From Prochloraceae cyanobacterium (GTDB lineage: Bacteria > Cyanobacteriota > Cyanobacteriia > Cyanobacteriales > JASJDA01): a DNA stretch of 48,374 nt. Shown here one piece after another: positions 2,950 through 27,845 of the stretch (position 1 is the stretch's first letter; every line of letters begins with the position of its first letter). The stretch lies in the NCBI GenBank assembly GCA_030065755.1, contig JASJDA010000062.1:1-48374 (forward strand), written 5' to 3'. A model generated the notes under the pieces. The model was not told where the DNA came from and made no database searches. It was given only the letters and a program-made list of their open reading frames with translations. Position numbers and translations under genes: made by a program.

Positions 2950-4284
2950 GTGAGAGTAGCTTACCAGTACAAAATGAGACCGAATAAACAACAAATAGAA
3001 GTCATTGAAAATTGGCTTAATTTGTTGCGTCGTCAATATAATTATAGACTAGGCGAGCGATTTAATTGGTACGAACAAAACAGAAGCAGTATTAATTCTT
3101 GTCCTCTAATTTGCCATCTACCACAACTTAAAAATAATCCTGAATATTACAGTCAAAAAAAAGATTTAATTAATACTAAAAAGTTGTTTTTTGAGTACAA
3201 AATGATACACTCTCAAGTACTTCAGGATGTTATCAAAAGAGTTAAATTAACTTTTGATAGATGGTTAAAGGGGGACAGTAGCGGGAAAAGATCGGGAAAA
3301 CCAAGATTTAAGGGCATGGGACGATATCACTCTTTTACCTATCCTCAAATGAAGCCTGATTGCATTAATGGCAAAAGAATAAAGTTGCCCAAAATAGGGG
3401 AGGTAAAGTTTATTCAACATCGACCTATCCCCGACGGTTTTAAGATTAAGACTGCTACTGTAATCCGAAAAGCTGACGGCTATTATGTCATCCTTTCTCT
3501 TGAGGATAAATCAATACCATCTCCTGATATCAGAATAATCCCTAATCCTGATAACACTATTGGGATAGACATGGGATTAAAAGCGTTTCTAATAGATAGT
3601 CTTGGAGTTGAGGTTAAAATACCTCAATATTACCGTCAAGCTCAAAAACAACTAAGAGTAAAGCAGAAAGCTGTATCGAGGAAAAAGAAGGGAACTAATA
3701 ACAGAAAAAAAGCTATTAAAAAACTAGCCAAACGACATCAAAAAGTAGCAAATATCAGGAAAGATTTTCACTATAAAACAGCTACAAATCTACTAAAGAA
3801 AAACGATGTTATAGCTCACGAAAAGTTAAATATTAAAGGTTTGGCTAAAACTCGTCTATCTAAAAGTGTTAATGACGCGGCGTGGGGACAGTTTTTAACT
3901 ATACTTGCAAGCAAAGCTGAAAAAGCGCACCGCCCGCGCCGAGGTTTCCTCGGCGTAAGGACGGAGCAAGAAGCTGGTTTGTTAACCGTAGCGGTTAAAC
4001 CTCACGGTACTACTCAAGAGTGTAGTTGTTGTGGAAAAACCGTCAAAAAGCGGATGCGACCCAGCTCGAATTCACTTCGAGCTGGAACGCGCACCAAGCC
4101 AGCGCTATCTGATAGATGGCATTCATGTTCTCACTGTGGTTTTGAAGCAGACAGGGATCAAAATGCCGCGATAAATATAAAAAACCGCGCGGTGGGGCAT
4201 CCCGTGCGTAAAGTTCACCGAGTATCCGAAGCAATCGCTGGAGTTGGTGAGAAGCCTACACTGTATACGCCAGTATCAGTGTAG
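2950..4284 (+). CDS. tnpB: TnpB-family RNA-guided endonuclease (IS1341-type), with two in-frame insertions
   Basis: 444 aa, GTG start at 2950. An AT-rich stretch (TATGGTAAAATATA, near 2907) could be its promoter. The N-terminal part carries the helix-turn-helix/wedge region MRPNKQQIEVIENWL. The RuvC active site is complete: GIDMGLKAF (Asp, motif I), HEKLNIKGL (Glu, motif II) and DRDQNAAINI (Asp, motif III), with a four-cysteine zinc finger CSCCG..CSHCG. TnpB cuts DNA guided by an omegaRNA made from the 3' end of its own gene. Two extra segments (about residues 326-341 and 367-384) interrupt otherwise conserved stretches; both derive from palindromic repeats (see 3925 and 4050). The second lies between the two zinc-finger pairs. 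No tnpA neighbour. Activity is therefore uncertain although all catalytic residues are present. Confidence 0.88.
   Translation: MRVAYQYKMRPNKQQIEVIENWLNLLRRQYNYRLGERFNWYEQNRSSINSCPLICHLPQLKNNPEYYSQKKDLINTKKLFFEYKMIHSQVLQDVIKRVKLTFDRWLKGDSSGKRSGKPRFKGMGRYHSFTYPQMKPDCINGKRIKLPKIGEVKFIQHRPIPDGFKIKTATVIRKADGYYVILSLEDKSIPSPDIRIIPNPDNTIGIDMGLKAFLIDSLGVEVKIPQYYRQAQKQLRVKQKAVSRKKKGTNNRKKAIKKLAKRHQKVANIRKDFHYKTATNLLKKNDVIAHEKLNIKGLAKTRLSKSVNDAAWGQFLTILASKAEKAHRPRRGFLGVRTEQEAGLLTVAVKPHGTTQECSCCGKTVKKRMRPSSNSLRAGTRTKPALSDRWHSCSHCGFEADRDQNAAINIKNRAVGHPVRKVHRVSEAIAGVGEKPTLYTPVSV
3925..3970. repeat. Palindromic element copy A, inserted in frame in tnpB
   Basis: The stem CGCCGAGG (3937-3944) pairs with CCTCGGCG (3948-3955) around TTT. 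The flanks GCGCACCGCC and AAGGACGGAGCAAG match copy C at 27653-27700. It adds a peptide around HRPRRGFLGVRTEQ between ASKAEKA and LTVAVKPHGTTQE, where TnpB relatives normally have only a few residues. Confidence 0.7.
4050..4100. repeat. Palindromic element copy B, inserted in frame in tnpB zinc finger
   Basis: The stem CCAGCTCGAA (4061-4070) pairs perfectly with TTCGAGCTGG (4076-4085) around TTCAC. Flanks GCGGATGCGAC and AACGCGCACCAAGCC follow the same framework as copy C. It encodes about RMRPSSNSLRAGTRTKPA between CGKTVKK and LSDRWHSC, which are adjacent in other TnpB proteins. Confidence 0.7.
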
Positions 4285-4297
4285 GAGTATGTCACGT
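4189..4297 (+). ncRNA. Probable omegaRNA 3' part and right end of the tnpB element
   Basis: The hairpin CCTACACTG (4255-4263) / CAGTGTAGG (4277-4285) overlaps the tnpB stop codon and is followed by AGTATGTCAC, a likely right end. The stretch is about as conserved as coding DNA in the relic at 27705-27811, including the hairpin, which supports an RNA role. By family knowledge the omegaRNA runs through the tnpB 3' end to the right end, with the guide taken from flanking DNA beyond it. Exact ends are not determined. Confidence 0.5.
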
Positions 4298-27260: not shown

Positions 27261-27652
27261 AGTTGTTTGTTGTTTGCTATTTGCTGTTTGTTAGCAGCCT
27301 ATCATAACGAGGACCATCCTAGAGATTTTGGGCGACATAGTTTGTCTCTACTGCTTTTAGAAATAAAATTGGTAATAATAAAAATAAAAATGTCTTCTTA
27401 TTTATTAAAGAAATATAATCAAAGTTAAAAAAAGGAATCCTCATAACCAGAAAGTTTAAATAACCAATATAATTGCAAGGCTTCTAGACAATGTATAATA
27501 CCTGTAATCTGAAAGAAGGAGAATAGCCTCATCGGATTGAACCTAAAAAACGATCGGGAACATAGGTTGTAACCAGAAGTCTCAGGTAACTCGGTGGAAG
27601 CGTAAAAGTTTATATAGAAGTCTGGGTGAGTAGTATTTAATAACTGCAAAAA

Positions 27653-27700
27653 GCGGAGCGCCCGCTCGGAGGTTCCCTCCGAGTTAGGACGCACCAAGCA
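27653..27700. repeat. Palindromic element copy C (best-preserved)
   Basis: CTCGGAGG (27665-27672) pairs with CCTCCGAG (27676-27683) around TTC. The flanks are GCGGAGCGCC and TTAGGACGCACCAAGC. It abuts the tnpB 3' relic, as if it had inserted into that gene at the site used by copies A or B. Confidence 0.65.
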
Positions 27701-27704
27701 GTCT

Positions 27705-27811
27705 GCGGTAGGGCATTCCGTGGACTTAAAATAAAGCTTACTTAATATCCGTTGCATTAGCTGGATTTGGTAAGAAGCCTACACCGTATACGTCAGTATC
27801 AGTGTAGGAGG
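27705..27811 (+). pseudogene. Relic of tnpB 3' end and omegaRNA hairpin, same family as the tnpB at 2950
   Basis: This stretch aligns with 4189-4289 of the intact element: GCGGTAGGGCATTCCGTG, then GTAAGAAGCCTACACCGTATACG and CAGTATCAGTGTAGGAGG. The terminal hairpin CCTACAC (27778-27784) / GTGTAGG (27802-27808) is kept. The upstream coding part is lost or unrecognisable, and 27261-27652 contains no gene that I can support. The open frames across this stretch on the minus strand are fortuitous. Confidence 0.65.
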
Positions 27812-27845
27812 ATAAGAATATAATAATTTATTTTTATTGTCAACT

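Follow-up and report, generated by a model that had tools for sequence, protein, structure and literature searches.

The window analysed here, the whole 48,374-nucleotide stretch of DNA from a Prochloraceae cyanobacterium, carries a tnpB gene of an IS605-family insertion sequence (IS) that contains two short palindromic sequences, insert A and insert B, both of which belong to a dispersed family of hairpin elements (Table 1). The initial annotation of this DNA had described two palindromes in frame in the one tnpB, with perfect stems of 8 and 10 bp, and both stems are real: CGCCGAGG/CCTCGGCG in insert A and CCAGCTCGAA/TTCGAGCTGG in insert B. Each stem is the top of a longer bulged hairpin (-26.0 kcal/mol, z -3.7, for A; -24.5 kcal/mol, z -5.2, for B), and the matches to our models R1 and R2 that cover the inserts span positions 3920-3973 and 4045-4101, respectively. 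The count of two stands for this gene and falls short for the family, which has a third copy in the window and extends across many genera and kinds of mobile gene.

The catalytic residues of the RuvC fold of TnpB, judged by motif, are all retained in the invaded gene (D207, E291 and the DRD motif at 401-403). Insert B falls, as had also been claimed, between the Cys pairs of the zinc finger (CSCC at 358-361 and CSHC at 393-396), and with it the spacing of the pairs grows from 14-15 to 31 residues, a change that might, as had been proposed, affect the nuclease. The window TnpB is probably still made, with two added loops.

Table 1. Coordinates of the invaded tnpB, its inserts and associated features in the window
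Feature	Position	Strand	Description
Host tnpB	2950..4284	+	444 aa; OrfB_IS605 and Cas12f1-like TNB domains
A-run target before insert A	3920..3924	+	AAAAA^G
Insert A	3925..3972	+	A-type hairpin element, 48 bp = 16 codons, AHRPRRGFLGVRTEQE; absent from 5 paralogues
A-run target before insert B	4045..4049	+	
Insert B	4050..4100	+	B-type hairpin element, 51 bp = 17 codons, RMRPSSNSLRAGTRTKP
Host IS right end	4253..4295	+	Terminal hairpin ending ...TGTCAC; homology among IS copies stops here
Third copy in the window	27653..27700	+	A-type (GGAGCG variant), within the right-end remnant of an IS605-family element that lacks tnpB

Insert boundaries and empty sites

The limits of the inserts were set from empty sites in eight paralogues of the same genome aligned with the window tnpB. 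Insert A is missing from paralogues C89, C401, C435, C402 and C175, and insert B from C218, C435, C402 and C175. The empty site A reads GCTGAAA-AAGCTGG and the empty site B GTCAAAAAAGCGTTATC; the occupied sites are longer by 48 and 51 bases, respectively, with 52 bp at site B in the truncated tnpB copy C401 owing to one extra A. With both inserts removed, the host gene is 1236 bp long, the same as in C402 and C435, where the two sites are empty, and all four combinations (neither insert, A alone, B alone, and both) are present among the paralogous tnpB genes of the genome. These empty paralogues reject the idea that the additional residues are conserved TnpB residues rather than inserts; what was found is clearly the opposite of the outcome that the initial annotation had set out against its own proposal, namely homologues with the same residues and no dispersed copies at the DNA level.

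The tnpB paralogues at L009-L014, L016 and L019, in which all four insert combinations are represented, are mosaics of sequence blocks, which suggests frequent recombination or conversion between IS copies. The window holds a second tnpB at 602-1156, degraded and with an in-frame TGA, that is about 33% identical to the gene at 2950-4284; in the one 8.5-Mb genome there are about 100 tnpB-like matches and 16 Y1 tnpA matches.

A dispersed family of bulged hairpins

The initial annotation had proposed a search of the same genome for dispersed copies and for empty and occupied sites, and both were found. The 201-bp region that spans the inserts has 47 matches in its own genome, and the models give 64 A-type matches and 14 strong B-type matches; about 74 copies were located. 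Roughly half of the located copies (36 of 74) lie in frame inside mobile genes: 28 in TnpB, five in group II intron reverse transcriptases (RTs) and three in DDE transposases. The TnpB insertions occupy several sites and the group II insertions at least two, with one group II gene holding two of them; other copies lie between genes, in right-end remnants of IS605 elements or, again in frame, in a gene for a TniB-like AAA ATPase. Chance palindromes are rejected by the 47 matches and by the left ends, exact or with one mismatch, which number 40 against 0 in a reversed-pattern control; an artefact of metagenome assembly is rejected since copies occur in complete genomes.

The copies have AAAAA-GC on their left side and CAAG(C/A)A on their right side in common; over its full length the element is a single bulged hairpin that encodes nothing by itself. 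From the foot upwards, the lower part consists of GC/GC, two bulged A, GG/CC or GC/GC, an A.A mismatch and three pairs; the upper part has a C.A mismatch and two pairs, followed by a short bulge and by nine pairs that are capped with a three-base loop. B-type copies follow the plan of the A-type with a different lower stem. Among 41 distinct sequences, compensatory changes on both sides are seen in 10 of the 18 pairs. Pairing holds in 94.6% of cells, where shuffles give 81.0%, and covariation scores 0.337, as compared with 0.105 for shuffled and at most 0.075 for slid alignments. Structure is thus better conserved than sequence across the copies, which suggests that the mobilising machinery recognises the hairpin as single-stranded DNA or RNA. 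An Rfam scan of the locus gave no match, so that membership of an Rfam family is rejected; a group I or II intron or an intein is likewise rejected, by the same scan and by the length of 48-51 bp.

Target sites and reading frames

The element inserts 3' of an A-run, in one orientation and with no clear target duplication. Empty counterparts were sought by joining the flanks of each copy and then searching all the sequence loci, and they were obtained for about 10 sites; where the comparison is clear, A-type copies add a net 48 bp and B-type copies a net 51 bp, starting right after the A-run. Over 113 distinct sites, A is present at -1 to -5 in 74-90% and G at +1 in 72%, with little signal further out, and the element has a single orientation relative to the A-run. 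When empty and occupied alleles are compared, no single length of target duplication accounts for every site; a duplication of 7 bp was considered and rejected because of its misfit at other sites.

Insertions make use of three frames of the element, with peptides resembling AHRPRRGFLGVRTEQ, RSARSEVSSELGRTK and SGAPARRSPPSKDA as products, and in TnpB a copy in antisense likewise stays open. At the sequence level, many insertions leave the gene encoding its protein with 15-17 more residues. By hand count, 18 of the 19 distinct gene sites in this genome have an open frame, where a fraction of about 0.66 is expected (P 0.004), and this excess of open gene sites is a filter after insertion, not coding design.

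Several loci illustrate how the copies are placed. The PKPGK motif of group II RTs has been taken by different element variants (C413, C115, C286, C47 and L128), which points to recurrent insertion at one target. The third copy in the window sits in the right-end remnant of an IS605-family element at 27500-27815, and the same flanks with the element recur at C341, C145, C200, C440 and C227. Three exact solitary right ends of the element were found, at L225, L226 and L227 (C96:171, C179:9454 and C382:5677), and no exact solitary left ends; the left sides of the three are unrelated, and a longer autonomous form bounded by half-elements is rejected on this ground. At C143:13353-13406 (L035, L086) the left flank of one repeated locus is joined to the right flank of a tnpB, which may stem from a recombination event inside the element or from misassembly of the repeat.

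Distribution and probable carriage by transposons

Of 391 genomes of the order, 51 are matched by the A-type model, and these are spread patchily over 21 of 150 genera. The sibling genome G001 has 47 matches, and 35 of the 40 genomes in the set of relatives have none; the records that match the exact pattern are of Xenococcaceae, Xenococcus, Okeania and Prochloraceae. In-frame copies elsewhere lie in ISL3, DDE_Tnp_1, other DDE transposase, TnpB and IS630 genes, and further hosts may include ISAs1, IS701, IS1634, ISKra4 and IS5, which were read off translations and are not Pfam calls. At L204-L206, L210 and L249, from several genomes of the order, copies with similar flanks lie in frame, in antisense orientation, in an apparent IS5-type transposase gene. 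The element has one plasmid match and no viral or phage match, and phage or viral carriage was rejected accordingly.

Whether invaded genes still work is best addressed with the complete genome of Stanieria sp. NIES-3757, in which an IS630 element with the hairpin inside is present in four identical copies. Its plasmid AP017376.1 carries the annotated coding sequence BAU67434.1, whose DDE_3 transposase, 386 aa long, holds AHRPRRGFLGVRTEQE in frame at WGKK/GSRKK; three chromosomal copies are identical to the plasmid copy over about 1.24 kb and have the same IS borders and unrelated flanks. An empty homologue in a species of the same family is 87.8% identical and has exactly 16 residues fewer. 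DNA and protein searches of the Stanieria genome found no uninterrupted full-length copy of this IS630, and gave only one fragment at 64% identity plus remote relatives. With all four copies occupied and no full-length empty copy, the invaded transposase is probably functional and takes the element along. The simplest reading of these sequences is that the IS630 multiplied with the element in its transposase and so carried it onto a conjugative plasmid; we infer that the invaded transposase is active, and the case suggests that in-frame inserts can be tolerated.

For tnpB, the relevant comparison is between C415 and C64, both of which have inserts A and B. The two genes differ by 13.5% (dS about 0.56, dN/dS about 0.1), and their inserts differ at 1 of 99 positions, for which P is about 1e-5 under common descent; the near-identity of the inserts in such diverged genes points to a recent origin or to spread through gene conversion.

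Interpretation

Taken together, the two inserts in tnpB are very probably copies of a non-autonomous mobile hairpin element that hitchhikes on the transposons it invades. The element, of about 48 bp in its A-type and 51 bp in its B-type form, inserts immediately 3' of an A-run, as the empty and occupied sites show; its length, usually a multiple of three, and its often stop-free sequence allow many insertions into the Lys-rich A-runs of mobile-element genes to keep the gene open; and at least in the Stanieria IS630 the invaded transposon has multiplied with it. Movement from one host to another would depend on an enzyme supplied in trans, with the hairpin as its DNA or RNA substrate.

A number of observations weigh against this interpretation. 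The stop-free fractions of the three sense frames are 0.79, 0.43 and 0.77, as compared with about 0.68 in shuffles, so that frame openness overall is close to chance and gives no hint of evolution towards a coding role; coding adaptation was rejected for this reason. Some insertions disrupt transposase genes, a few of them with stops. No mobilising enzyme was identified, and 16 of the 16 Y1 (PF01797) loci of the genome are without a flanking element, save via a neighbouring tnpB. The tnpB inserts are far younger than the divergence of their genes, so that purifying selection after insertion is not demonstrable there and was rejected in spite of the low dN/dS. The Stanieria pattern could also have arisen through the loss of an empty helper IS630, or through conversion that spread the insert among the four copies.

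Two explanations would do without a mobile element that is translated in place. If the inserts had spread by gene conversion among tnpB paralogues alone, one would expect what is indeed seen in tnpB, namely same-site inserts that are almost identical in diverged genes and the occurrence of all A/B combinations; the presence of the element in unrelated genes, in other transposase families, in non-coding DNA with unrelated flanks and in 21 genera leaves this reading with next to no probability and refutes it as the whole explanation, and conversion probably adds to the tnpB pattern. The insert might instead be skipped at the level of RNA or ribosome, by splicing or by translational bypass, for which the byp elements of yeast mitochondria are a precedent. 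The compactness of the hairpin (about 50 nt), its conserved ends and the few insertions with stops would suit such a process, which nevertheless requires neither the multiple-of-three net lengths nor the open frame that intact genes have; given also the excess of open gene sites described above and the lack of intron-like sequence and of an Rfam match, we consider skipping very improbable.

As for the mobilisation of the hitchhiking hairpin, a real possibility, if one short of probable, is that it moves as single-stranded DNA in trans by an IS200/IS605-type Y1 HuH transposase, or by one of the type associated with repetitive extragenic palindromes (REPs), in the manner of a REP or of a minimal IS605 miniature inverted-repeat transposable element (MITE). 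The genome has 16 Y1_Tnp matches and many hosts are IS605-family elements, and the hairpin itself fits in being oriented, with conserved bulges, conserved sequence on its left side only and no target duplication; it does not fit in that IS605 needs two ends where the element has one hairpin, no GTAG/GTGG or CGTC tag is family-wide at the hairpin foot, no Y1 gene is flanked by the element, and the host IS605 family has a TTTAGC-like left junction, a TCAC right end and no A-run. Alternatively, a terminator-like RNA (hairpin-UUUUU) might anneal to a nicked A-run and be copied in by a reverse transcriptase, for example one of the group II intron RTs whose genes are present in the genome. The opposite strand of the element together with its A-run has the shape of an intrinsic terminator, a GC-rich hairpin and then a T-run, and such annealing would explain why the A-run abuts the 5' end of the insert exactly; the lack of a clear target duplication and the conservation of structure rather than sequence agree with it as well. 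The A-run could, however, be a plain DNA target, there is no Rfam match and no known source RNA, and the incomplete copies, few as they are, keep the right end (three exact) and never the left end only, where early stopping predicts the opposite. We therefore regard RNA retro-insertion as unlikely. More doubtful still is its extension to a class of retro-elements of about 50 bp whose terminator-shaped RNA would re-enter at A-runs by target-primed reverse transcription and persist in frame in transposase genes, with transposons carrying it between cells. The probability left by the Y1 and RNA routes falls to mobilisation by some other route.

Relation to known systems

The nearest published precedent is the occurrence of REPs in frame in tnpAREP genes, in TnpAREP subclass 2.4, which is abundant in Cyanobacteria (PMC6006769). 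REPs are also found inside open reading frames (ORFs) in several species, with GTAG families in Cyanothece, Anabaena and Nostoc and palindromes of 20-40 bp (PMC3733652). In view of these two reports, the initial annotation went too far in holding that no cyanobacterial counterpart had been described. The phenomenon has precedent; the element family, the A-run target and the use of many transposase genes as carriers look new, and no description of them was found in the literature searched.

The likeness to the tnpAREP case lies in hairpins that are in frame within a transposase gene. Those REPs are cognate to the transposase gene that holds them and have a 5' GT[AG]G tag, whereas the element described here uses many unrelated transposase families; a cognate REP-associated tyrosine transposase was not found among the 16 Y1 PF01797 loci examined, and a distant gene may mobilise the element. 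No REP or REPIN tag (GTAG, GTGG or CGTC) is common to the family at the hairpin foot, where the conserved sequence is AAAAAGCG ... CAAGCAG; many A-type copies do have CGTC on their minus strand, at four bases from the apical stem, and the B-type lacks it. With the GTAG- and CGTC-tagged REPs (PMC3733652) the element shares short palindromes, some of them inside ORFs, and it differs from them in tags and in stem and loop lengths.

MITEs derived from IS200/IS605, and palindrome-associated transposable elements (PATEs), are similarly non-autonomous and palindrome-bearing and make no target duplication, and the element shares with the IS200/IS605 MITEs insertion 3' of a fixed short target, here the A-run at the left. 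These MITEs and PATEs keep the left and right ends of the parent IS, whereas the element is a single hairpin and the ends of the host IS are different. The small dispersed repeats (SDRs) of Nostoc, which Elhai et al. are said to have described in Genome Res in 2008, are reportedly very small mobile cyanobacterial repeats of 21-27 nt; some of them reportedly share a secondary structure with compensatory changes, and an RNA intermediate is said to have been suggested.

Protein-invading palindromes are best known from Rickettsia, and the resemblance to the Rickettsia palindromic elements (RPEs) that had been proposed for the window holds up: in both cases dispersed palindromes lie in frame in ORFs and add a peptide without breaking the gene, and empty paralogous or homologous sites are found beside occupied ones. 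To our knowledge, no active mover or carrier of the Rickettsia palindromes has been described. RPEs are about 150 bp long and reside in unrelated metabolic genes (PMC10969869). The cyanobacterial element, by contrast, is 48-51 bp long, has an A-run target, resides almost entirely in genes of mobile elements and belongs to another phylum; it is set apart from RPEs by their descriptions, and the Rfam scan of the locus gave no match. With hosts that are themselves mobile genes, a defined target, plentiful occupied and empty alleles, and a culturable strain of complete genome (Stanieria sp. NIES-3757) whose invaded transposon is apparently active, the old question of the spread of such palindromes and of their tolerance by proteins becomes directly testable, with a 16-residue insertion in a DDE transposase as the read-out; the family is in addition a source of natural TnpB variants whose zinc finger is enlarged.
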